Source: an uncultured Pelagibacteraceae bacterium (GTDB lineage: Bacteria > Pseudomonadota > Alphaproteobacteria > Pelagibacterales > Pelagibacteraceae). Taken from it: a stretch of DNA of 64,000 nt. The stretch spans positions 62,001 to 126,000 of the forward strand of contig CACPID010000002.1 in the NCBI GenBank assembly GCA_902633965.1, given 5' to 3'. Positions within the stretch are counted from its first letter, which is position 1, and every line of letters starts with the position of its first letter. Of the stretch, positions 1-40,347 are shown piece after piece. The notes beneath the pieces were generated by a model. It was not told the DNA's origin, searched no databases, and saw only the letters and a list, made by a program, of their open reading frames with translations. The position numbers were made by a program, and so were the translations under genes.

Positions 1-1
1 A

Positions 2-409
2 GATCTTGTACTTGGAAAAGAGCTTATAATATTTGGAAAGCAATTTTGGAGACCTTATTGTCATGTAAAGGATTTTTCAAATGCATTTATCACCGTTTTA
101 AATTCACCTAATGAAAAAGTTGCATATAATGTTTTTAATGTCGGTGATACAAAAGAAAATTATACAAAACAAATGATAGTTAACGAAATTATAAAAGTAT
201 TACCTAATTCAAAAATTAAACATGTAGTGAAAAAAGATGATCCAAGAGACTACAGAGTTAATTGTGATAAAATTAAAAATGAACTTGGTTTTAAAATAAG
301 CATGACAGTTCCAGATGGCATTATGGAAATTAAACGTGCAATTGAGGAAAATCTTATTAAGAATCCTGAAGATAAAAAATACTACAATATTCCCCATGAG
401 CAAAAATAA
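2..409 (+). CDS. NAD-dependent epimerase/dehydratase (SDR), C-terminal part
   Basis: The reading frame is open from the left window edge and only the last about 135 residues are visible. They hold the typical C-terminal half of extended SDR sugar-nucleotide enzymes: an RPYCHVKD segment, a VFNVGD segment, and a closing stretch with a DYRVNCDKIKNELGF motif, as in proteins that dehydrate or epimerise NDP-hexoses. The Rossmann domain and the catalytic YxxxK lie outside the window. The next gene starts 14 bases before this stop codon, so the two are probably translated together. Next to a LegC-type aminotransferase, a 4,6-dehydratase acting before transamination (LegB role) is the likely job; this is inferred from context, and an epimerase is possible. 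Confidence 0.85.
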   Translation, partial: DLVLGKELIIFGKQFWRPYCHVKDFSNAFITVLNSPNEKVAYNVFNVGDTKENYTKQMIVNEIIKVLPNSKIKHVVKKDDPRDYRVNCDKIKNELGFKISMTVPDGIMEIKRAIEENLIKNPEDKKYYNIPHEQK

Positions 410-1556
410 TGATAATCAAAATTTAGCTGTAATTGATTTTATAAAATCAATATATAGCAAGGATAAATTTATACCCCTTCATGAACCAAGATTTAAAGGA
501 AATGAAAAAAAATATTTAAGAGAATGTATTGATACAACATTTGTTTCTTCTGTGGGAAAATTTGTTGATCAGTTTGAAGAAAAAATAGCAAAATATACTG
601 GTGCAAAATATGCAGTTGCTACTACTAACGGTACCTCATCTCTTCATGTGTCGTTAATATTAGCTGGTGTAGAAAAAAACAATGAAGTAATTACTCAACC
701 ACTAAACTTTATTGCAACTTGTAATGCAATTAGTTATTGTAGCGCAAAACCTATTTTTATTGATGTTGATAAGGATACTATGGGCCTCTCACCATCTAAA
801 CTTAAATCTTTCTTAGAAAAAAATACATTAATAAAAAATAAAAAATGCATAAATAAGAAAACTAAAAGGGTGATTAAGGCATGTGTGCCTACGCATTCTT
901 ATGGACATCCTTGTAGAATAGATGAAATTAAAAAAGTTTGTGATGAGTATTGTATTTTTTTGATTGAAGATGCAGCTGAAAGCGTAGGTAGCTTTTATAA
1001 AAAAAAACACACTGGAACTTATGGCCAAATAGGCGCCATGAGTTTTAATGGCAATAAAATTATAACAGCTGGCGGCGGCGGATGTATTATTACAAATAAT
1101 AAAGTTCTTGCAAAAAAAGCAAAACATTTAACTACAACCGCTAAAGTTCCTCATAAATGGAATTTTAATCACGATATGATTGGCTACAATTATCGTATGC
1201 CAAATATAAATGCTGCTCTATTATTGGCGCAATTAGAAAAACTAAATGATTTTATTGATAATAAACGTAATTTAGCAAAAAGATATGAAGCTTTCTTCAA
1301 AAATGCAGATTATGAATTTTTTAAAGAACCAAAAAATAGCAAATCAAATTATTGGTTAAATTCTATTATTCTCAAAAATAAACATCAGAAAGATAAATTT
1401 TTAGAACAGACTAATTCTAGAGGTGTTATGACTAGACCAATTTGGACATTAATGAACGATCTACCAATGTTTAAAGATGCAGAGTGTCATAATTTAAACA
1501 ATTCAAAGTGGCTAGATGAAAGAGTTGTTAATATACCAAGTAGCACAACATTATGA
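396..1556 (+). CDS. legC: LegC-type sugar aminotransferase (PLP, DegT/AHBA family)
   Basis: A 386-residue PLP-dependent aminotransferase of the DegT/DnrJ/EryC1 family. Residues 192-196 (DAAES) include the Asp that contacts the pyridine nitrogen, and Lys221 in GNKIITAGGGG is the expected Schiff-base lysine. The subfamily resembles LegC, which aminates the 4-keto group of a 4-keto-6-deoxy-HexNAc nucleotide on the way to legionaminic acid. The frame extends upstream to 315, but ATG 396 is preferred because similarity begins soon after it and the longer start would bury deeply in the previous gene. The stop overlaps the next ATG (ATGA). The assignment to the nonulosonate pathway follows from the neighbours. 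Confidence 0.88.
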   Translation: MSKNNDNQNLAVIDFIKSIYSKDKFIPLHEPRFKGNEKKYLRECIDTTFVSSVGKFVDQFEEKIAKYTGAKYAVATTNGTSSLHVSLILAGVEKNNEVITQPLNFIATCNAISYCSAKPIFIDVDKDTMGLSPSKLKSFLEKNTLIKNKKCINKKTKRVIKACVPTHSYGHPCRIDEIKKVCDEYCIFLIEDAAESVGSFYKKKHTGTYGQIGAMSFNGNKIITAGGGGCIITNNKVLAKKAKHLTTTAKVPHKWNFNHDMIGYNYRMPNINAALLLAQLEKLNDFIDNKRNLAKRYEAFFKNADYEFFKEPKNSKSNYWLNSIILKNKHQKDKFLEQTNSRGVMTRPIWTLMNDLPMFKDAECHNLNNSKWLDERVVNIPSSTTL

Positions 1557-2131
1557 ATAAAATTATTCTTATAGGCGGAGGTGGCCATTGCAAGTCAGTA
1601 ATTGATGTAATTGAACAAGAAGCTAGATTTGAAATTGCTGGTATAATAGATAAACCTGAACTTTTAGGTACTAAAATTTTAGGATATCCGGTTATTGGAA
1701 ATGATTCTGACATAGAGATTTTAGCTAAAAAATATAAGTATGCCCTAGTAACAGTTGGTCAAATAAAATCACCATTATTAAGAATAAAACTTTTTGATTT
1801 AGCCGCTAAAGCTGGATTTACACTCCCCTCTATTGTCTCTCCACTTGCCCATGCATCTAAGCATTCAAAAATTGGTAATGGCACTGTTGTTATGCATCAT
1901 GCAATAATTAATGCCAATGTATCTATTGGTAATAATTGTATTATAAATTCAAAAGCATTGATAGAACACGATTGTTCAATTTCTAACAATTGTCATATTT
2001 CAACAAACGCAACCATTAATGGTGAGGTTAAAATCGGATCTAAATGTTTCATTGGTAGTAATGTGACAGTAAAAGACAACACCACAATAGAGGAAAATAG
2101 TTTCATTAAAGCTGGGACTTTATTTAAATGA
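1553..2131 (+). CDS. NeuD/PglD-type sugar O/N-acetyltransferase
   Basis: A 192-residue protein with an N-terminal nucleotide-sugar-binding fold (GGGGHCKSVIDVI, residues 8-20) followed by left-handed beta-helix hexapeptide repeats from about residue 85 to the end (for example IGNGTV, IGNNCI, IGSKCF). This is the PglD/NeuD/LegH architecture: acetyl-CoA-dependent acylation of the 4-amino group made by the preceding aminotransferase, or O-acetylation of the finished acid. It overlaps its neighbours by 4 bases on both sides. In this position the LegH role (N-acetylation before hydrolysis of the nucleotide sugar) is most economical, but the substrate cannot be read from sequence. Confidence 0.87.
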   Translation: MNKIILIGGGGHCKSVIDVIEQEARFEIAGIIDKPELLGTKILGYPVIGNDSDIEILAKKYKYALVTVGQIKSPLLRIKLFDLAAKAGFTLPSIVSPLAHASKHSKIGNGTVVMHHAIINANVSIGNNCIINSKALIEHDCSISNNCHISTNATINGEVKIGSKCFIGSNVTVKDNTTIEENSFIKAGTLFK

Positions 2132-3123
2132 GTGTATTTGTTATTGCAGAAGCAGGTGTAAATCACAATGGATCAATTGATTTAGCAAAAAAATTAATTG
2201 ATGCAGCATGTAATGCAGGAGCTGATGCTGTTAAATTTCAATCATTTAAAGCAGAAAATCTTGCAACCAAAAATTCTCAAAAAGCTATTTATCAAAAAGA
2301 AACCACAAATATAGAAGAATCACAGTTTTATATGCTTAAAAAATTGGAACTTAATCTTGAAATGCATAAAGAGCTTTTTTTATATTGTAAAAAAAAAAAA
2401 ATAATCTTCTTATCATCTCCTTTTGATCATGAAAGTATAGATTTATTAGAAAATTTAGGCTTAGACATATTTAAAATACCAAGTGGAGAGATTACAAACC
2501 TTCCATATCTTAGACACATAGGAAAACTAAATAAAAAAATAATCCTCTCAACAGGGATGTCAAACATGAATGAGATTAAGAATACTTTAAATATTTTAAT
2601 CAATTCGGGAACTAAAAAAGAAAATATAACAGTTTTACATGCTAATACTGAGTACCCAACTCCATTAGAAGATGTAAATTTAAGAGCAATGGTAACTATT
2701 GGAAATGAATTAGATGTGAGCTTTGGATATAGCGACCATACTTTAGGAATAGAAGTTGATATAGCTGCAGTTGCATTAGGTGCAAGCTGTATAGAAAAAC
2801 ATTTTACTTTAGATCGTAATATGGAAGGACCAGATCATAAGGCAAGTCTCGAGCCACAAGAGTTAAAAGCTATGGTAACAGCAATTAAAAATATAGAGTT
2901 AGCACTTGGCAGCGGTATTAAAATTCCTTCTAAGAGTGAAAAGCAAAATATAAAAATAGTAAGAAAGTCAATAGTTGCTAAAACTCAAATTAAGAAAAAT
3001 GACGTTTTAAACGAAAATAACCTTACAGTAAAAAGACCAGGAAATGGCATAAGCCCTATGAAATGGGACGAAATTATAGGTACTAAAGCTACAAAAGATT
3101 ACAAGGAAGATGAGCTGATATGA
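2128..3123 (+). CDS. legI: N-acylneuraminate/legionaminate synthase (NeuB family)
   Basis: A 331-residue protein with the NeuB TIM barrel (EAGVNHNG at residues 8-15, DAVKFQSFKAENL, SPFD, SGEITNLP, FGYSDHTLG) and a C-terminal SAF/antifreeze-like domain from about residue 275. The family condenses phosphoenolpyruvate with a six-carbon amino sugar to form a nine-carbon nonulosonic acid in the cytoplasm. NeuB, LegI and PseI are hard to tell apart by eye; LegI is favoured by the LegC, LegG and PtmE-like neighbours. A run of 13 A residues lies inside the gene (2389-2401). It overlaps its neighbours by 4 bases. Confidence 0.92.
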   Translation: MSVFVIAEAGVNHNGSIDLAKKLIDAACNAGADAVKFQSFKAENLATKNSQKAIYQKETTNIEESQFYMLKKLELNLEMHKELFLYCKKKKIIFLSSPFDHESIDLLENLGLDIFKIPSGEITNLPYLRHIGKLNKKIILSTGMSNMNEIKNTLNILINSGTKKENITVLHANTEYPTPLEDVNLRAMVTIGNELDVSFGYSDHTLGIEVDIAAVALGASCIEKHFTLDRNMEGPDHKASLEPQELKAMVTAIKNIELALGSGIKIPSKSEKQNIKIVRKSIVAKTQIKKNDVLNENNLTVKRPGNGISPMKWDEIIGTKATKDYKEDELI

Positions 3124-4289
3124 GCAAGAGGAAAATATGCGTAGTAACAGGATCACGTGCAGAATATGGATTATTATACTGGTTAATTAAGGAAGTTGAG
3201 GCCGATCTAGATCTTGAACTCCAGCTCATTGTTACAGGGTCGCATTTAAGTTCTGAGTTTGGTTTAACCTACAAAGAAATAGAGAAAGATTTTAAGATTA
3301 ATAAAAAAATAGACATACGCTTAATTTCTGACACCAGCGAAGGTATTTCAAAGTCTATGGGCATAGCCCAAACATCTTTTTCAAAAGCTTATAATAAGTT
3401 AAAACCTGATATTGTCGTGGTATTAGGAGATAGGTACGAGATTTTTAGCGCAGTAAGTTCAGCTATGATATCACGAATTCCCATTGCACATATTCATGGA
3501 GGCGAAGCTACAGAAGGAATAATTGATGAAGCTATTCGACATTCTATAACTAAAATGAGTCATTTACATTTTACAGCCGCTGAAGAATATCGCAAAAAAG
3601 TAATACAATTAGGCGAAGAACCTAATAGGGTATTTAACGTAGGAGGCGCTGGAATTGAAAGTATTAAAAGACTTAAACTTTTAAAAAAAAAAGATTTTGA
3701 AAAATCAATCAATTTCAAACTTAATATTAAAAATATTTTAGTTACTTATCACCCTGTTACTTTAGAAGACAAGACATCAAAAAAAAATTTTCAGGAAATT
3801 TTAGATGCCATTGATGAATTAAAAGATACAAACATAATTTTTACTAAAGCAAACAGTGATATGGATGGAAAAGTTATAAATCAAATGATTAAACAATACA
3901 CAAAAAAAAATTTAGAAAAATCTATTGAAGTAACTTCCTTAGGACAACTTAATTATTTAAGTGCCTTGCAATATATTGATTTTATAATTGGTAATAGCTC
4001 AAGTGGCCTACTAGAGGCACCAAGTTTTAAAACAGGAACTATTAATATTGGTGATAGACAGAATGGTAGATTGAAAGCAGAAAGTGTAGTTGATTGTTTG
4101 CCTAGTAAAAAAAATATAAAAAAAGCTATTAAAAAAATTTACTCAAATGGATTTCAAAAAATTTTAAAAGATGTTAAAAATCCGTACGATCATGGATTTG
4201 CAAGTAAGAAAATTATTAAAGTTTTAAAAAAAGTAAATTTAGATAAAACTTTAAAGAAAAATTTTTTTAAAATAAAGTTTTCAATATGA
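3120..4289 (+). CDS. legG: UDP/GDP-HexNAc 2-epimerase, hydrolysing (NeuC/LegG)
   Basis: A 389-residue UDP-GlcNAc 2-epimerase-fold protein of the hydrolysing NeuC/LegG branch. Visible family motifs are GSRAEYG near residue 11, VLGDRYE near 101, HIHGGEATEG near 127, and the GNSSSGLLEAP nucleotide-binding segment near 294. The enzyme inverts C2 and releases the nucleotide, giving the free ManNAc-like sugar used by the synthase encoded just upstream. ATGA overlaps join it to both neighbours. Whether the substrate is UDP-linked (NeuC) or a GDP- or UDP-linked 4-amino-6-deoxy sugar (LegG) is inferred from the operon. Confidence 0.92.
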   Translation: MSKRKICVVTGSRAEYGLLYWLIKEVEADLDLELQLIVTGSHLSSEFGLTYKEIEKDFKINKKIDIRLISDTSEGISKSMGIAQTSFSKAYNKLKPDIVVVLGDRYEIFSAVSSAMISRIPIAHIHGGEATEGIIDEAIRHSITKMSHLHFTAAEEYRKKVIQLGEEPNRVFNVGGAGIESIKRLKLLKKKDFEKSINFKLNIKNILVTYHPVTLEDKTSKKNFQEILDAIDELKDTNIIFTKANSDMDGKVINQMIKQYTKKNLEKSIEVTSLGQLNYLSALQYIDFIIGNSSSGLLEAPSFKTGTINIGDRQNGRLKAESVVDCLPSKKNIKKAIKKIYSNGFQKILKDVKNPYDHGFASKKIIKVLKKVNLDKTLKKNFFKIKFSI

Positions 4290-5167
4290 AAATATTATTT
4301 ATAGGGACCGTAAAGTTTTCAAAAATAGCTCTTCAAAAACTAATAGAACTTAATGCTCAAGTGGTAGGAGTATGCACCAAAGAAAAGTCAGAATTTAATA
4401 GTGATTTTGCTGAATTAAGACCCTTATGTGAAAAAAACAAAATACCTTATAAATACGTTGATAATATTAACTCAAAAGATAATTATAATTGGATCAAATC
4501 TCTAAGCCCTGATATTATTTTTTGTTTTGGCTGGTCTAATTTATTAAAAAAAAATATATTAAGATTAGCACCAATGGGTGTTTTGGGATTTCATCCTTCT
4601 GAATTGCCAAAAAATAGAGGTCGTCATCCATTGATTTGGGCACTTGCACTGGGTCTTAAAAAAAGTGCTTCGACCTTTTTTTTTATGGATGAAGGAATTG
4701 ATAGTGGTGAAATTTTATCTCAAAAAAATTTTGATATTTCAAGCAATGATGATGCACAAAGTTTATATAACAAAATGGCTAATAATGCTTTGCAGCAAAT
4801 AGAAGAATTTTTACCACAACTTGAAAAAAAAAATTATCAAACAATCAAACAAAATGATGAAGTCTCCAATATCTGGAGAAAACGAGTTAAAACTGATGGT
4901 CGAATAGATTTTAGAATGGAAAGTCAGGCTATTTATAATTTGGTAAGAGCTTTATCAAAACCTTATGTTGGAGCCCATATTAAATATAATGAGAAAGAGA
5001 TTATTGTTTGGAAAGTAGAAATAGTTGAGAATAAACAAAATAACATTGAGAGTGGAAAAGTTTTAGATATAAATGAAGATAAAATACTAGTAAAAACTTA
5101 TGATGGAGCCATAAGAATAACCCACCATGAATTTGAAAAAATCCCAAATATTGGAGAATATCTTTGA
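4286..5167 (+). CDS. Formyltransferase-family protein (sugar N-formyltransferase-like)
   Basis: A 293-residue protein with the formyl-THF-dependent transferase fold shared with methionyl-tRNA formyltransferase, including a C-terminal FMT-like domain from about residue 200. The catalytic His and Asp are recognisable as His103 (GFHPSELPKNRG) and Asp139 (DEGIDSGEI). The Asn that normally sits two residues before the His is Gly101. In polysaccharide clusters such proteins usually formylate amino sugars. The PIG-L deacetylase encoded directly downstream, with a TTGA overlap, could create the free amine. It is not the housekeeping tRNA enzyme, judging from context and motif divergence. Whether it acts on the nonulosonate or a precursor is open. 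Confidence 0.8.
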   Translation: MKILFIGTVKFSKIALQKLIELNAQVVGVCTKEKSEFNSDFAELRPLCEKNKIPYKYVDNINSKDNYNWIKSLSPDIIFCFGWSNLLKKNILRLAPMGVLGFHPSELPKNRGRHPLIWALALGLKKSASTFFFMDEGIDSGEILSQKNFDISSNDDAQSLYNKMANNALQQIEEFLPQLEKKNYQTIKQNDEVSNIWRKRVKTDGRIDFRMESQAIYNLVRALSKPYVGAHIKYNEKEIIVWKVEIVENKQNNIESGKVLDINEDKILVKTYDGAIRITHHEFEKIPNIGEYL

Positions 5168-5823
5168 AAAATAAAGTACTAGTTGTAGCCGTACATCCAG
5201 ATGATGAAACTTTAGGATGCGGAGGAACTTTGCTCAAACATAAAGCTAATGGTGACAAAATTCACTGGCTTATTTGTACAACTCTTAACAAAAAGCATAG
5301 CTATTATCGAAATAGAGATAAAGAAATAAGCAAAGTTTCAAAACTTTTTAGTTTTGATAGCGTTCATAGTCTCTTGCTGGAAACCGCTAAGGTTGATCAA
5401 CATAGCATGGTAGAATTAGTTGAAAAAATGTCAAAAGTAATTAATAAAGTGAAACCAAATATTATTTATCTTCCATTTAAAGAAGATATTCACACTGATC
5501 ATAAAAAAATTTTTCAAGCTAGCTATAGTTGCACCAAATCATTTAGATTCCCTTTTATAAAAAAAATATACATGATGGAGATCTTAAGTGAAACAGAATT
5601 TGCCCCAAGCATAAAAAAAAATAGTTTTACACCAAATACATTTGTCGACATAAGTAAATATTTAAATAAAAAAATTAAAATAATGAAAATTTATAAAAGT
5701 GAAATAAACAAACATCCCTCTCCGAGAAGTGAGAAAAGTATTAGAGCACTAGCGACTTTTCGAGGATCAACTTCTGGATGTAAGTTTGCTGAAAGTTTTA
5801 TGCTCTTAAAGGAAATTACATGA
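5164..5823 (+). CDS. PIG-L/LmbE family sugar N-deacetylase
   Basis: A 219-residue zinc-dependent deacetylase of the LmbE/PIG-L family. The metal- and catalysis-defining motif HPDDE is at residues 11-15 and a second histidine motif (HTDHKK) near residue 103. The family removes N-acetyl from GlcNAc-type sugars and related substrates. Translation appears to begin at TTG 5164, inside the stop of the formyltransferase, and the gene ends with an ATGA overlap into the next one. Its position suggests that it exposes an amine for the formyltransferase or supplies GlcN-1-P for the following nucleotidyltransferase. Both are inferences. Confidence 0.88.
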   Translation: MKNKVLVVAVHPDDETLGCGGTLLKHKANGDKIHWLICTTLNKKHSYYRNRDKEISKVSKLFSFDSVHSLLLETAKVDQHSMVELVEKMSKVINKVKPNIIYLPFKEDIHTDHKKIFQASYSCTKSFRFPFIKKIYMMEILSETEFAPSIKKNSFTPNTFVDISKYLNKKIKIMKIYKSEINKHPSPRSEKSIRALATFRGSTSGCKFAESFMLLKEIT

Positions 5824-6872
5824 AAAGTGTAAAAAATATAAAAAATATAAAAATCACTAAAGATGCAACAATTAAAAAAGCTTTAAAGGTTATTGAAAAA
5901 GGACATATTAAAATTGCACTAGTAGTTGATAACAAAAACAAGTTAATTGGCACCTTAACAGATGGTGATATTAGAAGAGGTTTTTTAAAAGGCTACAATA
6001 TTAATAGTCCTATAAATTCAATAATTAATAAAAGACCGCTTGTTGCAAAAAGGAATGACGCAAAAGAAAAGTTATTTAATAGCGCTCTATCTAGAAAAAT
6101 CTATCAAATTCCTGTAATTAATAAAAAAGGAAATGTTACAGAACTATATATAATAAATAAGCTTTTAAAAAGTAAAACAAAATTCAATAAAGTTGTGATA
6201 ATGGCTGGTGGAAAGGGAATACGCTTAAGACCACTTACTAAAAACACTCCAAAACCAATGTTAAAAGTAGGAGGCAAACCTATCTTACAAAGAATCATTA
6301 AAACATTTAAAGATTGTGGTTATAAAGATTTGATTATTTGTGTTAACTATAAATCTCATATAATTGAAAATTATTTCGGTAATGGAGGCAAGTTTGGAGT
6401 AAATATAGAGTATGTTAAAGAAAAAAAAATGATGGGCACAGCTGGAGCCTTGAGCCTTATTAAAGAAAAGTTAACTGAACCTTTTTTTATAATAAATGGA
6501 GATTTACTAACTAATCTTGATTTTGAAAAAATGTTAGATTTTCACATTAAACACAACTCCATAGCTACTATGGGTATAAAAAAATACAGCATAAACTCAC
6601 CTTATGGCGAAGTTAACTTAGTCAATGAAAGCATTTCATCTATCAATGAGAAACCAACACATAAATTTTTTGCTAACGCTGGAATTTATGTTTTAAATCC
6701 AGAATGTGTTGATTTAGTACCAAAAAAATTTTTTGACATGACCTCTCTTTTTAAAAAAATTATTTTAAAAAAAAAAAAAACAATTTCATTTCCTTTAGAA
6801 GAATATTGGAAAGATATTGGTAGGTTAAGTGATTATGAGACAGCAAATAAAGAATTTGTAAAAAAATATTAA
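5820..6872 (+). CDS. CBS-domain nucleotidyltransferase (PtmE-like)
   Basis: A 350-residue protein in two parts. Residues 1-115 form a pair of CBS motifs (TLTDGDIRRGFL near 45), a regulatory module that usually binds adenine nucleotides. From residue 124 follows a sugar-phosphate nucleotidyltransferase with the signature AGGKGIRLRPLT (129-140) and a NGDLL metal site near 223. The same domain order occurs in Campylobacter PtmE, a GlcN-1-P guanylyltransferase that starts the GDP-linked legionaminic acid route. That match, and the linked leg genes, support the same role here. Near the 3' end there is an uninterrupted run of 14 A (6767-6780). Nucleotide specificity is not visible. Confidence 0.88.
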   Translation: MKSVKNIKNIKITKDATIKKALKVIEKGHIKIALVVDNKNKLIGTLTDGDIRRGFLKGYNINSPINSIINKRPLVAKRNDAKEKLFNSALSRKIYQIPVINKKGNVTELYIINKLLKSKTKFNKVVIMAGGKGIRLRPLTKNTPKPMLKVGGKPILQRIIKTFKDCGYKDLIICVNYKSHIIENYFGNGGKFGVNIEYVKEKKMMGTAGALSLIKEKLTEPFFIINGDLLTNLDFEKMLDFHIKHNSIATMGIKKYSINSPYGEVNLVNESISSINEKPTHKFFANAGIYVLNPECVDLVPKKFFDMTSLFKKIILKKKKTISFPLEEYWKDIGRLSDYETANKEFVKKY

Positions 6873-6889
6873 ATCTAAAAATTTTAAAT

Positions 6890-7564
6890 ATGAAAATATT
6901 AGCAATTATTCCAGCTAAAAAAAACTCCAAAAGAATTAAAAATAAAAATAAAATTTTACTAAAAAATAAAAAATTGATTGAGCACACCTTTTTAGTTGCA
7001 CAAAAATCAAAATTATTTACAAAAATATTATTAACAACCGATGATAAAGAAATTATAAGATTATCAAAAAGATATGGCATTTTGGCTCCTTGGGTAAGAC
7101 CTAAAAAATTATCAGACTATTTTTCTCCTTCTTATAAAGCAGTAATTCATGCATATGATTGGTATAAAAAAAATTTTGGAAAAGTTGATGGAATTTTTAT
7201 TTTACAACCCACGTCACCCTTCCGAACAATAAAAACTTTGAAAGAAATGATAAGAATTTTTAAAATTAATAAAAAAAAATCTGTTATTAGTGTTTCTAAA
7301 TGTAGTGAACATCCAGAATGGATGTTAAAGTTAAAGAACAACAAAATATTACCATATATATCACAAAAATATTTTACAAAAAGATCACAATCGCTTGCCA
7401 AATTATATAAAATTAATGGATTGGGTTATTTAATTAATCCTTTAATTTTAAAAAAAGAAAAAACCTTAATACCAAAGAATGCAATACCCTGTATTAATAA
7501 ATCTAAAATCGAATCTATTGATATAGATGACATGCAAGATTATTTAATTGCAAAAAAAATTTAA
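6890..7564 (+). CDS. CMP-nonulosonate cytidylyltransferase (NeuA/LegF family)
   Basis: A 224-residue CMP-sugar synthase. The N-terminal CTP-binding motif is present in a lysine-rich variant (IIPAKKNSKRIKNKN, residues 6-20), followed by TTDD near 48 and a QPTSPFR motif near 105, all typical of CMP-Neu5Ac/CMP-Leg/CMP-Pse synthetases. It activates the nonulosonic acid for transfer. It is the last gene of the operon, 17 bases after the nucleotidyltransferase. The acid activated cannot be read from sequence; the LegF/PtmB role fits the operon. Confidence 0.9.
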   Translation: MKILAIIPAKKNSKRIKNKNKILLKNKKLIEHTFLVAQKSKLFTKILLTTDDKEIIRLSKRYGILAPWVRPKKLSDYFSPSYKAVIHAYDWYKKNFGKVDGIFILQPTSPFRTIKTLKEMIRIFKINKKKSVISVSKCSEHPEWMLKLKNNKILPYISQKYFTKRSQSLAKLYKINGLGYLINPLILKKEKTLIPKNAIPCINKSKIESIDIDDMQDYLIAKKI

Positions 7565-7675
7565 CGAATTAAAAATTCAGAAAAATTATTAATTTAATTA
7601 TGAGGAATATAACTGTTTAAAGCTACACAAATCATTTTTCTTAAAGTGTACAAAACTATAAATACTTAGATATAA

Positions 7676-8659
7676 ATGATAAATTCTTTTATAAATTTAA
7701 TAAAATTATCTTTTTGTAAAAAAATAATTATTATAACAAATACTTTGCAGATGTTAAATTTAGCTGAATTTTTTCATGCGCATAAACTATTTCATAGAGA
7801 ATTTAATAATTTTATAATTTTATGCCCTTACACTAATGAAAATGCTTTCAAAAAAATTAAAGTTTGCCATAGAGAGTTAATCAAAAAAAATAATCTAATC
7901 TTAAATTTTCAAAAAAAAAAAGAAATTAAGATTTTATATTTAATATTTTATATTAAGAAATTTTTTAATTTGGGAATAGATCAAATAATTATAGGTAATT
8001 ATTATTCATATTTGAATCAAAAATTTGCAAAAATCTCAAGGGAGGTATTGGTACTTGATGATGGTACAAATGTACTACTAAAAAAAAATTTACAATTACT
8101 AAAAAAATCAAATTATTCGTTTTTTTCTATTTTTGATGAAAAATTTTTTCAAAAGAAAAATTATAAAAAAAATGATTTCAAGTTTCTTAAAAATAAATTT
8201 TTTAACAAAAGAAGTTATTCAGAGAATGTATTAATTTTAGGCAAACCAATTGTTGAATCAGGTTTTTTTAAAGAACATCAGTATGATTTCCTTATAGAGT
8301 ATATAAAAAATAAATTTAAAAATAAAAATCTCTATTATTTTCCACACCCCAAAGAAAATTTAAATATTTTAGAAAAAAAATTTGGATCAATAAAATTTAT
8401 AAAATCAAAATATCCTATTGAAATTTATTTTTTAAAGATGAAAAAAACTCCAAAAACTGTAGTCAGTTTTAATTCTAGTGCGGTTATTCCATTAAAATTA
8501 TTAGATAAAAAATTGAATATATTTAATATTTATTTTAAAATAAGACTTGATAAAAATCACTCATGGAGACTAAATCTTCCTAGAGAATTAATGACTAGAA
8601 ATTATTTTAAATCACATCTATCAATAAAATCAAAAACACTGAAAATTCCAGACTTATAA
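7676..8659 (+). CDS. Sialyltransferase-like glycosyltransferase (GT38/GT52-like motifs)
   Basis: A 327-residue lysine-rich protein without a signal peptide. It has the short motifs that define bacterial sialyltransferases: an acidic DDG at residues 128-130 (VLDDGTN), His-Pro at 224-225 (YFPHPKEN), and a Ser-rich segment at 264-268 (SFNSS) that binds the CMP phosphate in those families. It follows the CMP-nonulosonate synthase by about 110 bases on the same strand, which is where the transferase for that donor would be expected. Overall similarity is too faint to name a CAZy family with certainty. The likely role is transfer of the CMP-activated nonulosonic acid to a surface glycan. Confidence 0.65.
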   Translation: MINSFINLIKLSFCKKIIIITNTLQMLNLAEFFHAHKLFHREFNNFIILCPYTNENAFKKIKVCHRELIKKNNLILNFQKKKEIKILYLIFYIKKFFNLGIDQIIIGNYYSYLNQKFAKISREVLVLDDGTNVLLKKNLQLLKKSNYSFFSIFDEKFFQKKNYKKNDFKFLKNKFFNKRSYSENVLILGKPIVESGFFKEHQYDFLIEYIKNKFKNKNLYYFPHPKENLNILEKKFGSIKFIKSKYPIEIYFLKMKKTPKTVVSFNSSAVIPLKLLDKKLNIFNIYFKIRLDKNHSWRLNLPRELMTRNYFKSHLSIKSKTLKIPDL

Positions 8660-8693
8660 TTATAAATAAATTTGCTTTAAATAAGATACATAA

Positions 8694-9644
8694 TTAAAGA
8701 TTTTTAAACAGATTTTTTTCTTTTTTATACCACTCGATTGTTTTTTTTAATCCCTCGTCAAATGTAAATAATTTTTTAAATTCAATAAAATTTTTCATTT
8801 TAGCAGTAGAGGCCTTCATCCTATGAATCTCTGTTTTTCTTTCAGGCAACCCTCCAATAATTAGTCTAGATTTAGAGGCAGTAAGTGTTTGAATTTTTTT
8901 TGCAAGTAGTTTTATTGATATTTCATTACCATCAGAAATATTTGTAATGTTGTTGAAAAACTTTTGATTTTTCATAGCATTTATTAAAAAATTGACAGTA
9001 TTACCAACATAATTAAATTCTCTAGTTTGATTTCCTTTTGTAATTTTTACTACCTTATTATCGATGAATTTTTTTATTAACTCTGGAATTACAGCCTTCA
9101 TACTTTGAGACTCCCCAAAAACATTAAATGGTCTTAATATCTTTATTGGTTTTTTCATATGGAGCATATGCATTTGCGCATACAGTTCACCTGAATATTT
9201 TCCAATCGAATATGGAGAAATTGGATGAGCCTTCATGCTCTCGATGAATAATTTTTTATTATTTTGATGTCCGTAAATTTCAGATGTTGAAACATAAATA
9301 AATTGTTTATAGTTCCTTAAGTTTTCTAAAAGATTTGAAGTACCAATAATATTGCTCTCTAGTGCTTCAGAGTAATTTGAGAAGCTACCCTTAACATCAT
9401 TATAGGCGGCTAAATGAAAAATTATATCTGGTTTAAAATTATTTATTTTATTTATTGTATTTGAATGTCTTAAATCACTTTCAATAATTGTAATTTTCTC
9501 CCATATATTAAATAGTCTGATATTTTCATAAACACTGTCATATTTTGTTGTAACAGCAACATTATACCCTTGATTTACAAGACTTTTTACTAAGTGTGAG
9601 CCTATAAACCCAGAACCCCCTGTGACTAAAATTTTTGATTTCAT
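8694..9644 (-). CDS. NAD-dependent epimerase/dehydratase (extended SDR)
   Basis: A 316-residue extended SDR. The nucleotide-binding motif TGGSGFIGSH is at residues 8-17, the catalytic serine region STSEIYG near 118, and YSIGK (catalytic Tyr and Lys) near 145. The pattern is that of NDP-sugar 4,6-dehydratases or 4-epimerases. It is the third gene of a minus-strand operon with a nucleotidyltransferase and a PIG-L deacetylase, so it likely acts on the nucleotide sugar those two provide. Its 3' end faces the sialyltransferase-like gene across 34 bases with no clear terminator. The product is not predictable. Confidence 0.85.
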   Translation of the reverse strand: MKSKILVTGGSGFIGSHLVKSLVNQGYNVAVTTKYDSVYENIRLFNIWEKITIIESDLRHSNTINKINNFKPDIIFHLAAYNDVKGSFSNYSEALESNIIGTSNLLENLRNYKQFIYVSTSEIYGHQNNKKLFIESMKAHPISPYSIGKYSGELYAQMHMLHMKKPIKILRPFNVFGESQSMKAVIPELIKKFIDNKVVKITKGNQTREFNYVGNTVNFLINAMKNQKFFNNITNISDGNEISIKLLAKKIQTLTASKSRLIIGGLPERKTEIHRMKASTAKMKNFIEFKKLFTFDEGLKKTIEWYKKEKNLFKNL

Positions 9645-9686
9645 TTAAATTTCAAATTATAGCATGTACAAATTTATTACAAATAC

Positions 9687-10367
9687 TTATTCAACTGATT
9701 TTACAACTTCGAATGCCTCAGCAGCTTTTATGTTAATTGAATTGCCCCTAAATTTTATAAGATTTTCTATAGACTTTAAAGAAAGAAAATTGGGATAAGG
9801 TTTTAACTCATCATTATAAAATTTTTTTAAGATAAATATTTTTTTTTTATATGTTTTATCTATATCAACAAAATAATTTGGGTTAAAAGCTCTATTTTTT
9901 TTTATCAATTTTTCAGAGGCTGATGGAATTTCAAATGAATAGATTTTTTTTAAAAAGGTGATATTTTTATTAGGTCTACATGCTATCATTGTTGCCTCAG
10001 TCGTGGCTCTATGGTCATGATGATTGTCATCAATACAATGAGTAAAAATCATTTGGGGTTTAAATTTTTTTATTTTTTCAAATATAACCCTGGACATTTT
10101 GGTTATATCTTTCCTTCCTATTGATAATCCATTAAAATTTAAAAATTCAGGCTCTGCAATACCAAGATATTTTGAAACCTTTTTTGCAATTTTCTGTCTT
10201 TCATTATTTTTTTTTATGCTTTTATTATTGATACGCTTATCGTAGGTTTTGCATGTAAAAATAATTTTAATTTTACACTTTTTTTTAAATTTTAAAATTG
10301 TTCCACCACATCCAATTATTTCATCATCAGGGTGGGCAGCTATAACTAAAATTTTTGAAGGGTTCAT
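9687..10367 (-). CDS. PIG-L/LmbE family N-deacetylase (second copy)
   Basis: A 226-residue LmbE/PIG-L protein with AHPDDE near residue 11-16 and a downstream HDHRATTEA histidine motif near 118. It is clearly related to the deacetylase at 5164-5823 but divergent, so not a recent duplicate. It sits 5 bases after the nucleotidyltransferase and 42 bases before the SDR, forming a compact three-gene unit. A hydrolytic N-deacetylation of a GlcNAc-like sugar or nucleotide sugar is expected from the family. Confidence 0.86.
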   Translation of the reverse strand: MNPSKILVIAAHPDDEIIGCGGTILKFKKKCKIKIIFTCKTYDKRINNKSIKKNNERQKIAKKVSKYLGIAEPEFLNFNGLSIGRKDITKMSRVIFEKIKKFKPQMIFTHCIDDNHHDHRATTEATMIACRPNKNITFLKKIYSFEIPSASEKLIKKNRAFNPNYFVDIDKTYKKKIFILKKFYNDELKPYPNFLSLKSIENLIKFRGNSINIKAAEAFEVVKSVE

Positions 10368-10372
10368 AAATC

Positions 10373-11077
10373 TTATTTTAATAACATTTCTTTAAATTTT
10401 GTATTAATTTCATTGTATTCTCTTGGATTGTCAAATGAAAAATATTTTTTATTAGTAATATTAGTAAATATTTTTTTATTTTTAATTAATTTATTTAAAA
10501 AATAAATCCAAGATTTGCTTTTATTAATTTCAGAGATAATTTTTTTTTTAAATATAAAATAACCCAAATTAATTGGATTTTTTATCAATGGTTTCTCATT
10601 AAATTGTTTTATTAAAAAATTTTTTTTGTTATATGTAATTGTTCCATATTTAAGCCTATAATAAGCACTTACAACAGATGCTGATATATTTTTTTTTCTA
10701 AAATCATTAGTATATTTTTTTAAATTTATATCTATAAAAGTATCTCCGTAGCAAACAAAAAAATCATTTCTAATATGAGCAGAACAATCTTTTAATCTTT
10801 TAATAATATCGACATTACCAGAGTCGACTAATTTTATTTTTTTATTTTTTTTGAAATATTTATTTACAAACTTTGTAACCATATGTGACTTATATCCAGT
10901 AGCTACTATTACTTGATCTACATTTAATTTTAAAAATTTATTTATAATGTAATATAAAAAAGGCTTTCTATTTACTAGTAACAATGGTTTTGGAGTGTTT
11001 AAAGTATATGGTCTTAATCTTTGGCCTTTTCCACCACACAAGAGCACAACGTCAACTTTTTTTGTTGATTTCATCAT
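10373..11077 (-). CDS. Sugar-1-phosphate nucleotidyltransferase
   Basis: A 234-residue NTP-transferase with the signature LCGGKGQRLRPYT (residues about 13-25) and the metal-binding CYGDTFID near 109. It has no CBS or left-handed-helix domain, so it belongs to the short group that includes HddC and GlcNAc-1-P or mannose-1-P nucleotidyltransferases. It opens a minus-strand operon and is divergent from the methyltransferase at 11177, with about 100 bases between them that must hold both promoters. NTP and sugar specificity are unknown. Confidence 0.86.
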   Translation of the reverse strand: MMKSTKKVDVVLLCGGKGQRLRPYTLNTPKPLLLVNRKPFLYYIINKFLKLNVDQVIVATGYKSHMVTKFVNKYFKKNKKIKLVDSGNVDIIKRLKDCSAHIRNDFFVCYGDTFIDINLKKYTNDFRKKNISASVVSAYYRLKYGTITYNKKNFLIKQFNEKPLIKNPINLGYFIFKKKIISEINKSKSWIYFLNKLIKNKKIFTNITNKKYFSFDNPREYNEINTKFKEMLLK

Positions 11078-11176
11078 TTAATTTTTTTATATCTTATACA
11101 GTTAGATACAAGAAAATACCTTAAATTTAATAAAATCATATTTTAATACTAATTAAATATAATTATATAAAAATTA

Positions 11177-12394
11177 ATGAAGCGTAAATGTGATGTATGC
11201 AAAAGAAAGTTAGCAGGACCTATTTTGTCCTTAGGTAACCAGCCATTGTGTGACGATTTACATTCTATTAATTCAAATATAAGAACAAAACTTTATAAAA
11301 TTGAATTAAGATTATGTAAAAATTGCCTTACTGTAAATCAATTACATAAAGTAGATCAACAAACACTTTTTCCAAAAAAGTATAATTATCGTGCTTCTTT
11401 AACAGTTGATGTGCAAAAAGGAATGGAAGATCTTTGTATTAAAGCAAATAAATTAATTAAAAAAAAAAAGAAAACTGTCTTAGATATTGGGTGTAATGAT
11501 GGTTCCTTATTAAATTTTTTTAAAAAACAAAAATTCAAAACATATGGAATTGAACCCACAAATGCCTTCAAAGACTGTTCAAAAAATCATACTATATTTA
11601 ATCAATATTTAAACGAAACTATTGTTAAAAAAATTTTAAAAAAAAATAAACACATAGATATAGTTACATTTACTAATGTTTTTGCTCATATTCCAAACTT
11701 TAATCAATTAATTAATAGTTTAAAAATTTTAACCTCTAAAATTTCATACTTAATAATTGAAAATCATTATCTTGGTTCTGTATTAGAAAAAAATCAATTT
11801 GATACTTTTTATCAAGAACACCCAAGAACCTATAGTTTAAATTCCTTTATTAAAGTTTCTAAATTACTAAATTTAAATATACAAAAAGTTGAATTTCCAA
11901 AAAGATACGGAGGCAACATAAGAGTTTATATGTCAAAAAATAAATTAAGAAAAAATAGAAAACTTGAATTTTTGTTAAGAAAAGAAAAAAAATTTATATC
12001 AATGTTTTCAAAATTAAAAAAAAAAATGACATTGTGGAAACAAAATAAAACAAAATTATTTCAATATTTAAAGAAAGAAAAAACTATAATATTTGGCAAA
12101 GCATTTCCTGGTAGAGCCTCTATTTTAATAAATATTTTAGGTCTAAATAGTGATTATATTAAATGTATTTTTGAACAAAACAAATCTCCAAAAAATTTTC
12201 ATTACGTGCCTGGTACGAAAATTCCAATTCTCCCTGATATAGAAATGAAAAATAAATTAAAAAAAAACAAAAATGCAATATTGATAAATTTTTCTTGGCA
12301 TATTAGCCATGAGATAAGAAAATATTTAAAAAATTTAGGTATTAAAAATACTATAATTGATATTGTTGAAAAAAATGATTTTAAAAAAAGGTAA
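11177..12394 (+). CDS. Zinc-binding C-methyltransferase-like SAM enzyme
   Basis: A 405-residue three-part protein like the NovU/TylC3-type sugar C-methyltransferases. An N-terminal putative zinc module has paired cysteines (CDVCKRK at 5-11 and LCKNC near 48). A class I SAM domain follows (DIGCNDGSLL near 103), and the C-terminal third has the Rossmann-like domain of that family (IIFGKAFPGRAS near 305). Such enzymes add a branch methyl to 3- or 4-keto deoxysugars on a nucleotide carrier. A second family member lies at 21771-22952. The substrate is unknown. Confidence 0.82.
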   Translation: MKRKCDVCKRKLAGPILSLGNQPLCDDLHSINSNIRTKLYKIELRLCKNCLTVNQLHKVDQQTLFPKKYNYRASLTVDVQKGMEDLCIKANKLIKKKKKTVLDIGCNDGSLLNFFKKQKFKTYGIEPTNAFKDCSKNHTIFNQYLNETIVKKILKKNKHIDIVTFTNVFAHIPNFNQLINSLKILTSKISYLIIENHYLGSVLEKNQFDTFYQEHPRTYSLNSFIKVSKLLNLNIQKVEFPKRYGGNIRVYMSKNKLRKNRKLEFLLRKEKKFISMFSKLKKKMTLWKQNKTKLFQYLKKEKTIIFGKAFPGRASILINILGLNSDYIKCIFEQNKSPKNFHYVPGTKIPILPDIEMKNKLKKNKNAILINFSWHISHEIRKYLKNLGIKNTIIDIVEKNDFKKR

Positions 12395-40229: not shown

Positions 40230-40347
40230 TGCCTGGTGATTATTGCGAAGGTGTAATACCCGATCCCATTCCGAACTCGGTAGTCAAGCCCTTCTGCGCC
40301 GATGGTACTTTGTCTTAAGACATGGAAGAGTAGGACGTTGCCAGGCT
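40230..40347 (+). rRNA. rrf: 5S ribosomal RNA
   Basis: About 117 bases with the conserved 5S layout: terminal helix formed by GCCTGG (40231-40236) and CCAGGC (40341-40346), the loop A-B segment ending in CGATCCCATTCCGAACTCGG, and GCGCCGATGGTA before the last arm. The gene stands alone: no 16S, 23S or tRNA gene is in the 40 kb to its left, and ribosomal protein L36 lies to its right. Ends are set by the terminal helix and may be off by one or two bases. Downstream only an AT-only hairpin could serve as 3' processing or stop signal. Confidence 0.95.

Follow-up and report, generated by a model that had tools for sequence, protein, structure and literature searches.

Gene content and arrangement of the locus

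The stretch analysed here (64,000 nucleotides, hereafter the window) comes from the 73.6% complete genome of a Pelagibacter-like, SAR11-type marine bacterium. Its first 7,564 positions carry eight nonulosonate genes, arranged one behind the other in the + orientation, within a 40-kb sugar island between the 23S and 5S rRNA genes. Few-base overlaps join the genes from the LegC-family aminotransferase to the CBS protein, and a gap of 17 bases precedes the CMP-sugar synthetase. The features of the locus and of its immediate surroundings are:

2..409, +: 3' end of a galE-like extended-SDR gene, motif STCSNYG (whole gene in locus L002, 15411-16409, 332 aa)
396..1556, +: LegC-family aminotransferase (TIGR04181, 558 bits, cut-off 420)
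1553..2131, +: NeuD/PglD-type acetyltransferase, proposed LegH (TIGR03570, 182 bits, cut-off 160.8)
2128..3123, +: NeuB/LegI nonulosonate synthase (TIGR03569, 508 bits, cut-off 399.65)
3120..4289, +: NeuC/LegG hydrolysing 2-epimerase (TIGR03568, 480 bits, cut-off 235.9)
4286..5167, +: formyltransferase-fold protein, FMT1 (PF00551, Formyl_trans_N, and PF02911, Formyl_trans_C), with G-x-H (Gly101-His103) and Asp139
5164..5823, +: PIG-L/LmbE-type deacetylase, TTG start (PF02585)
5820..6872, +: CBS and nucleotidyltransferase protein of the PtmE plan (PF00483, NTP_transferase, and PF00571)
6890..7564, +: CMP-nonulosonate synthetase, LegF/PseF-like (PF02348, CTP_transf_3, above its cut-off)
7676..8659, +: protein of no assigned family that carries DDG, PHP and SS motifs, possibly a further gene of the operon
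8694..9644, -: SDR with motif STSEIYG, candidate LegB (TIGR04180, 171 bits, cut-off 475)

A first-pass annotation of this DNA had named the eight genes, their order and the operon, and profile searches, which it had proposed as a check, recover all of them; the LegC, NeuD, NeuB and NeuC models score above their cut-offs, with TIGR03568 and TIGR03569 matching Leg and Neu substrates alike. For the CMP-synthetase, PseF is the best named model, with 138 bits against a cut-off of 205.7. The LegC gene probably starts at the ATG at 396 rather than at 315.

The SDR gene in front of the eight, absent from that annotation, starts upstream of the window, and a gene 81% identical to it occupies the equivalent position in locus L028. 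An acidic residue in the motif marks 4,6-dehydratases, and since STCSNYG lacks it, the protein is more likely an epimerase; its assignment as LegB is doubtful on this motif reading. No LegB (4,6-dehydratase) at the curated level of TIGR04180 was found in the operon, and the best match in the incomplete genome is the SDR on the opposite strand at 8694-9644. In many other operons a dehydratase of 395-400 aa precedes LegC; a search of the window's own genome, run without a positive control, gave no match to it.

The protein encoded at 7676-8659 may, tentatively, be regarded as a candidate CMP-nonulosonate transferase. It has no NCBIfam or Pfam match at E 0.001, a scan of viruses yielded no relative, and a profile search of the PDB gave a single match (E 0.048) to a different kind of protein. 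Three relatives from the SAR11 order retain D-x-G and P-H in the alignment, with HR replacing HP in two of them, and the predicted structure is unusable (pLDDT 38.5).

The formyltransferase-fold protein and the deacetylase

ArnA, which formylates a UDP-amino sugar (UDP-Ara4N), is the nearest solved relative of FMT1 (E 2.2e-31, 27% identity), and the predicted model (pLDDT 96.5) superposes on it with a Z of 34.5 and an rmsd of 1.7 over 285 residues. Sugar N-formyltransferases of the ArnA/WlaRD/VioF type usually possess a catalytic Asn-His-Asp triad. By fold and homology FMT1 belongs with these enzymes, while its triad is incomplete: His103 and Asp139 are retained, but Gly101 aligns with the Asn of ArnA. 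This Gly, which lay outside the search patterns, occurs in 89 of 89 FMT1 rows (88 distinct). Other motifs are partly ascertained, as the 80 loci considered below were found with patterns including NRGR[HN]P[LI]IW and PDx..C.GW.

Because the usual active-site Asn is missing, catalysis by FMT1 is unproven. The protein might transfer another group or be non-catalytic, leaving N-5 of the product free or otherwise acylated, and the uniform Gly, together with invariant Asn110 and Arg113 and a nearly invariant His114 in an alignment of 43 sequences, speaks for such a departure. We nevertheless regard it as very unlikely: His103 and Asp139 are likewise invariant in the 43 sequences, the whole two-domain fold matches ArnA, and Halorubrum, whose leg cluster has a predicted formyltransferase that may be of either the Gly or the Asn type, produces N-formylated legionaminic acid (PMC6137143).

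The metal-site motifs HxDDE and HxDH of PIG-L are invariant in the eight sequences aligned; at the x position of HPDDE, L024 has Ala instead of Pro. Their residues serve as zinc ligands. PIG-L scores far below the cut-offs for BshB1 (70 vs 182.5 bits), BshB2 (39 vs 195) and MshB (27 vs 224).

The gene pair across bacteria

A scan returned 229 relatives of FMT1, and the best 80 loci of these 229 were analysed; their sequences are related, so that the locus counts are not independent, and L045/L020, L060/L022 and L077/L023 are duplicates on the same contigs, while L058 and L161 share a genome. In 76 of the 79 readable loci, from 13 named phyla, the gene immediately after FMT1 is PIG-L (adjacency in L045 was read from L020, on the same contig), and the two genes overlap at start and stop in 54 of the 71 loci counted by script. 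An adjacency so regular rules out chance or misannotation of the pair. The exceptions are L076, in which FMT1 has no PIG-L, and L057 and L064, in which PIG-L lies elsewhere in the locus. NeuB or NeuC is present in 76 of the 80 loci; L050, L091 and L092 combine the pair with a more distant NeuB, two of these being long loci with no NeuC match.

The first-pass annotation had supposed the resulting sugar to be uncommon. At the level of genes this does not hold, as FMT1, PIG-L and NeuB or NeuC occur together in 73 of the 80 loci, from 14 named phyla. Within the genus of the window's organism, nonulosonate operons of this kind are rare (2 of 300 genomes, including its own). Mobile elements offer no close member of the FMT1 class among the matches listed: in tblastn searches the best listed plasmid match is 34% identical (234 records matched, at least 60 listed, many annotated arnA), and the best listed phage match 30% (17 records).

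NeuD, a second formyltransferase and the amine at C4

Some operons harbour a second formyltransferase, of the Asn type (FMT2), which mostly lies between LegC and NeuB, mostly replaces NeuD and mostly has no PIG-L of its own. Asn is present in all 16 FMT2 rows of more than 180 residues, although L079 (23%) is hardly an FMT2, and L161 and L058 belong to one genome. We tabulated 67 operons with LegC and NeuB matches within 6.5 kb of a formyltransferase, leaving out L161 and L045. NeuD accompanies FMT2 in 2 of 14 operons, as against 45 of the 53 operons devoid of FMT2, the other eight of which have neither; PIG-L is found in all 61 operons with FMT1 and in none of the six without (Fisher p-values 1.4e-6 and 1e-8, ignoring relatedness). 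L070 was entered as having FMT2 but no NeuD; its gene is a fusion in which the match spans only 87 residues, too short for motif scoring, and L162 was scored as FMT1-negative owing to a broken contig, FMT1 and PIG-L of the same genome lying on another (L020). There are also counter-cases: L158 and L162 hold both NeuD and FMT2, L036 adds a weak NeuD-like gene (23%), and L160, outside the 67, has FMT2 (40%) and PIG-L without FMT1.

Since FMT2 mostly takes the place of NeuD, the two would seem to be interchangeable means of acylating the C4 amine, which points to a different site for FMT1. That PIG-L tracks FMT1 fits a swap of the 2-N-acetyl group, because only an amine that is already acetylated needs a deacetylase. 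Known sugar formyltransferases use freshly made amines, which would favour formylation of the C4 amine (N-7) by FMT1, with PIG-L undoing NeuD acetylation or repairing side products; L019, whose G-x-H formyltransferase adjoins an aminotransferase and has no PIG-L match, would agree. Yet NeuD is kept in most FMT1 operons that have no FMT2, which would amount to a futile cycle, and FMT1 and PIG-L persist beside FMT2 where NeuD is undetected (L036, L058, L068, L070, L078, L082, L101, L157). We therefore judge formylation at N-7 by FMT1 to be very unlikely, and favour its action on the 2-amine.

The NeuC type and the timing of the swap

The reaction of NeuC takes place at C2, next to the 2-N-acyl group. 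In three operons of Bacteroidota with FMT2 and without FMT1 and PIG-L (L154-L156), NeuC is of another type and NeuB is not, according to quick trees (L020, L022 and L023 left out; L161 and L115, a duplicate of L024, kept). Compared with six chosen FMT1 operons, NeuB of these three is 55-68% identical and NeuC only 34-39%, whereas NeuC pairs within the six reach 56-69%. Their CBS protein (35-68%) and CMP-synthetase (38-65%) likewise vary in identity to the FMT1 operons compared, and both are close to those of L048. NeuC of the window (3120..4289) is of the type that mostly accompanies FMT1 and PIG-L, although L036 combines the pair with the other type, and L158, L159 and L113 carry the FMT1 type with no FMT1 nearby.

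This pattern bears on when the acyl group would be exchanged. In Campylobacter, legionaminic acid is known to be modified late at N-5, and PIG-L and FMT1 might similarly act after NeuB, on the complete nonulosonate, free or as its CMP derivative. Gene order by itself does not fix the step, the pair lying between NeuB and NeuC in, for example, L037, L038, L044 and L052. A late exchange appears rather unlikely, however, as it is NeuC and not NeuB that differs in type where the pair is absent (L154-L156), and as no more than 250 bp separate NeuC from the FMT1/PIG-L block in 67 of the 71 loci having NeuC.

Proposed pathway

With an early exchange at the 2-amine, we infer the substrates, the order of steps and the product from the gene content, the pairing, the motif and the phylogenetic pattern described above. 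The CBS nucleotidyltransferase would supply an NDP-hexosamine (GDP), from which a LegB-like dehydratase would make NDP-4-keto-6-deoxy-GlcNAc. LegC would place an amine on C4 of this NDP-4-keto-6-deoxy sugar, and NeuD (FMT2 in other operons) would acylate it, NeuD with acetyl; this amine would become N-7 of the product. Before NeuC acts, PIG-L would strip the 2-N-acetyl group inherited from GlcNAc, and FMT1 would formylate the freed 2-amine, the later N-5. NeuC, of a type matched to the formylated substrate, would epimerise and free the sugar, NeuB would add pyruvate, and the CMP-synthetase encoded by the last gene would produce the CMP-sugar.

On balance we favour a CMP-activated nonulosonate of the legionaminic type with formyl on N-5 as the operon's product. 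The earlier suggestion of an N-formyl nonulosonate thereby gains comparative support and is sharpened to a position. Judged from the genes, the compound is most likely Leg5Fo7Ac, or an epimer of it, which is considered because the operon carries the SDR.

There is, in our estimate, an even chance that these operons represent an undescribed, horizontally spread branch of nonulosonate synthesis, present in at least 14 phyla, including the ocean groups SAR11, SAR86 and Prochlorococcus, in which acetyl is swapped for formyl at the NDP-sugar stage by PIG-L and formyltransferases of a new, G-x-H class. If so, 5-N-formyl nonulosonates would be a common, overlooked surface sugar, and operons with FMT1/PIG-L and FMT2 would give 5,7-di-N-formyl sugars. 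The acylation of N-5 and N-7 in sialic-acid-like sugars could then be read from the content of NeuD, FMT2 and FMT1/PIG-L, and a formylated sugar for which the only accounts we met concern a haloarchaeon and its virus would become a predictable surface feature in many bacteria. In marine bacteria, formylated surface sugars may affect phage binding and grazing. The FMT1 class, in addition, offers a test of how essential the usual Asn is.

Comparison with known systems

Campylobacter jejuni makes CMP-legionaminic acid from GDP sugars with LegB-C-H-G-I-F and PtmE. Judged against this gene set, at the level of gene content, the operon shares LegC, a NeuD/LegH-type gene, NeuC/LegG, NeuB/LegI, the CBS-nucleotidyltransferase and the CMP-synthetase. 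It differs in having FMT1 and PIG-L inserted behind NeuC and ahead of the CBS protein, and in beginning with an SDR in place of a clear LegB. The likeness drawn in the first-pass annotation thus stands for the gene set, and is qualified by a LegB that is not recognisable in the operon and a formyltransferase devoid of the usual Asn. The CMP-legionaminic pathway is outlined in PMC6137143, according to which 5-N-formyl-legionaminic acid is known from Halorubrum sp. PV6. The leg cluster of this archaeon includes HrrPV6_1050, a predicted formyltransferase, and NeuD (HrrPV6_1051); neither 'deacetyl' nor HrrPV6_1052 occurs in the main text. By description rather than by sequence, this system shares with ours the leg genes with formyltransferase and NeuD, and a product formylated at N-5. 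Similarly, the flagellin islands of Geobacillus combine nonulosonate genes with formyltransferases, one of them noted in the place of an acetyltransferase (PMC5109656, in whose main text 'deacetylase' is absent); here too formyltransferases stand among sialic-acid-like genes, the fmt1 of these islands being comparable to FMT1 by description only. Literature searches on legionaminic, nonulosonic and pseudaminic acids and formyltransferases, which covered few subscription journals, found no description of the FMT1/PIG-L route.

Among individual enzymes, the N-terminal domain of ArnA has the same two-domain fold and the same site His and Asp, and FMT1 differs from it in the Gly and in its partner genes. 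BshB, MshB and diacetylchitobiose deacetylase share with the PIG-L protein the common domain with HxDDE and HxDH, which here is tied to nonulosonate operons.

Organization and genomic setting of the operon

The source genome (903,680 bases, 73.6% complete) contributes bases 62001-126000 of contig C2 to the window. Judged by its composition and the order of its genes, this genome appears Pelagibacter-like. The operon runs in the order MarR-like gene, SDR, LegC, NeuD, NeuB, NeuC, FMT1 (a formyltransferase-fold protein with a G-x-H site), PIG-L (deacetylase type), CBS-nucleotidyltransferase and CMP-synthetase. The eight gene identities proposed for LegC to CMP-synthetase in the first-pass annotation are all backed by family scores, that of the CMP-synthetase at domain level only. 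Genes from LegC through the CBS protein overlap, and GC content drops along the operon from 29-31% (LegC to PIG-L) to 26% (CBS protein), 23% (CMP-synthetase) and 19% in the next gene.

Features of the operon and its surroundings
Ahead of LegC: MarR-like gene, identified by eye
Upstream stretch L002, 15411-16409: SDR, heading the operon with the MarR-like gene, ahead of LegC
Window 4286-5167 (+): FMT1
Window 5164-5823 (+): PIG-L
Window 7676-8659: unclassified gene with DDG, PHP and SS motifs, some 110 bp past the CMP-synthetase
Window 8694-11077 (-): second small cluster of a LegB-like SDR, another PIG-L (36% to that of the operon) and a nucleotidyltransferase called by sequence
Window 40232-40346: 5S rRNA
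L002 10359-14999 and window 1-40346: 40-kb sugar island of low GC

As 16S, two tRNAs and 23S rRNA lie upstream and the 5S rRNA follows at 40232-40346, the operon sits at the start of a 40-kb island bounded by 23S and 5S rRNA, an interval that corresponds to SAR11 hypervariable region 2. Family-model scores revealed no recognisable LegB within the operon; because the host genome is incomplete, LegB may be absent from the assembly or may be the SDR at 8694-9644. The motifs of the unclassified gene resemble those of bacterial sialyltransferases, and its three distant relatives occur in SAR11-order genomes.

An unusual formyltransferase active site

The nearest solved relative of FMT1 is ArnA (E 2.2e-31; by profile 3.8e-49), and a model built from 43 sequences (pLDDT 96.5) superimposes on the ArnA domain with Z 34.5 and rmsd 1.7 over 285 residues. 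Formyltransferases usually possess the catalytic set Asn-His-Asp, but the Asn of ArnA (N-L-H) aligns with Gly101 of FMT1. Glycine occupies this position in 89/89 FMT1 rows (88 distinct, L018 and L019 included), and Asn in 16/16 rows of FMT2, a second formyltransferase of some nonulosonate operons, one of these rows being doubtful and one coming from a genome counted twice; the distant protein of locus L070 (24%) has Val. His103, Asp139, Asn110 and Arg113 are invariant among the 43 FMT1 sequences and His114 nearly so. FMT1 is thus a predicted formyltransferase of an unusual kind. Members of this class may have roles beyond nonulosonate operons, as in L019, a locus of another SAR11 genome, where a G-x-H formyltransferase (8675-9505; 34%) stands beside an aminotransferase and an SDR and a search for PIG-L, NeuB and NeuC nearby gave no match.

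FMT1 and PIG-L form a widespread unit

FMT1 matches are present in 3/300 same-genus genomes (E <= 1e-40), namely the source genome, G022 (44%, inside a nonulosonate operon) and G078 (34%, where NeuB and NeuC were looked for nearby without a match), and in 8/385 genomes of the class (E <= 1e-45). Searching genome contigs with the FMT1 alignment yielded 229 relatives, the best 80 of which, sharing ancestry, were fetched as loci; 77 of them fall into 15 named phyla and three are unplaced. Among these best 80 of 229, FMT1, PIG-L and NeuB or NeuC occur together in 73 loci (14 named phyla), PIG-L is present in 77 and NeuB or NeuC in 76, the exceptions to the latter (L075, L088, L095, L097) having contigs that are short or start at FMT1.

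The pair is a unit: of the 79 loci that could be read, 76 (13 named phyla) have PIG-L directly after FMT1 in the same orientation, 71 scored by script, L063, L089, L096 and L100 by reading tables, plus L045; L056, whose contig stops no more than 70 bases from the gene, was left out as unreadable. PIG-L lies elsewhere in L057 and L064 and is missing from L076. Start and stop overlap in 54 of the 71 script-scored loci. Of the 71 loci that contain NeuC, 67 have it at most 250 bp from the pair.

The closest operon among the best 80 is that of L028, a Pelagibacteraceae single cell (65-81% per protein). Placement of the window's NeuC in the tree indicates horizontal transfer, since its set of 10 (SH-aLRT 98%) mixes Campylobacterota, two gammaproteobacteria and L028.

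Some operons contain further genes. In L027 (Sulfurimonas), NeuB is separated from NeuC by a gene with an ORF6N domain (6948-7841), and PIG-L from the CBS protein by a gene for a DUF1016/YhcG nuclease (10535-11542); in L034 (Arcobacteraceae), the gene separating NeuB from NeuC encodes a B12-binding radical SAM protein (6447-7832). Identical NeuB copies, with PIG-L/FMT1 pieces oppositely oriented towards both ends, characterize the Prochlorococcus contig L096, perhaps a single-cell amplification artefact.

Assignment of the two nitrogens

In a nonulosonate of this type, N-5 corresponds to C2 of the hexosamine and has carried its acetyl group from the GlcNAc stage onwards, and N-7 corresponds to C4, where LegC introduces the nitrogen. 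Where present, FMT2 mostly lies between LegC and NeuB. LegC and NeuB both occur close to the formyltransferase in 67 operons; among these, NeuD accompanies 2/14 with FMT2 versus 45/53 without it, and PIG-L 61/61 with FMT1 versus 0/6 without it, although one of these six (L162) lies on a broken contig and its genome carries the pair on another. In the simplest reading of this comparison, NeuD and FMT2 would be alternatives for N-7 while FMT1 and PIG-L would serve N-5, from which an acetyl has to be taken off beforehand. The activities, substrates and product of the operon are likewise predicted by comparison.

An FMT2-led search of 395 genomes from the phylum of Flavobacterium suaedae (L048) gave seven carriers (E <= 1e-60), each read over about 18 kb. 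Four (L154, L155, L156, L159) show neither NeuD nor the pair, L157 has the pair without NeuD, L158 NeuD without the pair, and L160 PIG-L without FMT1; L158, L160 and L162 fit the scheme imperfectly. In L070 (5573-7996), LegC and NeuB are separated by an 808-aa protein that fuses a formyltransferase-like domain to a carbamoyltransferase.

Order of the steps

In 74/75 FMT1-linked rows NeuC shares 44.8% identity or more with that of the window, compared with at most 35.8% in 15/18 others, and the NeuC tree requires 5 changes of this label versus 16.8 in shuffles. NeuB is clustered by FMT1 linkage too, given 12 changes versus 28.9. L154-L156 are the informative case: their NeuB nests among NeuB proteins of flavobacteria that are linked to FMT1 (55-68% identity with six such proteins), and their NeuC is of a different type (34-39%). 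As NeuC thus tends to accompany the pair and NeuB need not, we place the acetyl/formyl swap before NeuC, the weakest part of the predicted route. Contrary cases are L036, which combines the pair with the other, non-adjacent NeuC type, and L158, L159 and L113, with window-type NeuC and no pair nearby. In L158, an FMT2 operon without the pair that yet retains the matching NeuC, 1.4 kb between NeuB and NeuC (10550-11927) carry no ORF above about 110 aa on the operon strand, perhaps a recent loss.

Comparison with known systems

The same logic appears, in one instance, to operate within another nonulosonate pathway: in L087 (Brocadia; 452-3562) two small formyltransferases flank a synthase of the pseudaminic type (486 bits for PseI, cut-off 340), and next comes a PIG-L-like gene that matches the second PIG-L of the window at 29%. 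No description of the FMT/PIG-L pair was found in the literature searched. Halorubrum sp. PV6 and its virus carry 5-N-formyl-legionaminic acid, and the leg cluster, in the portion of the account consulted, comprises a predicted formyltransferase and NeuD, with no deacetylase named there (PMC6137143). Against this background the predicted sugar is of a known kind, while the putative route and formyltransferase class look new.
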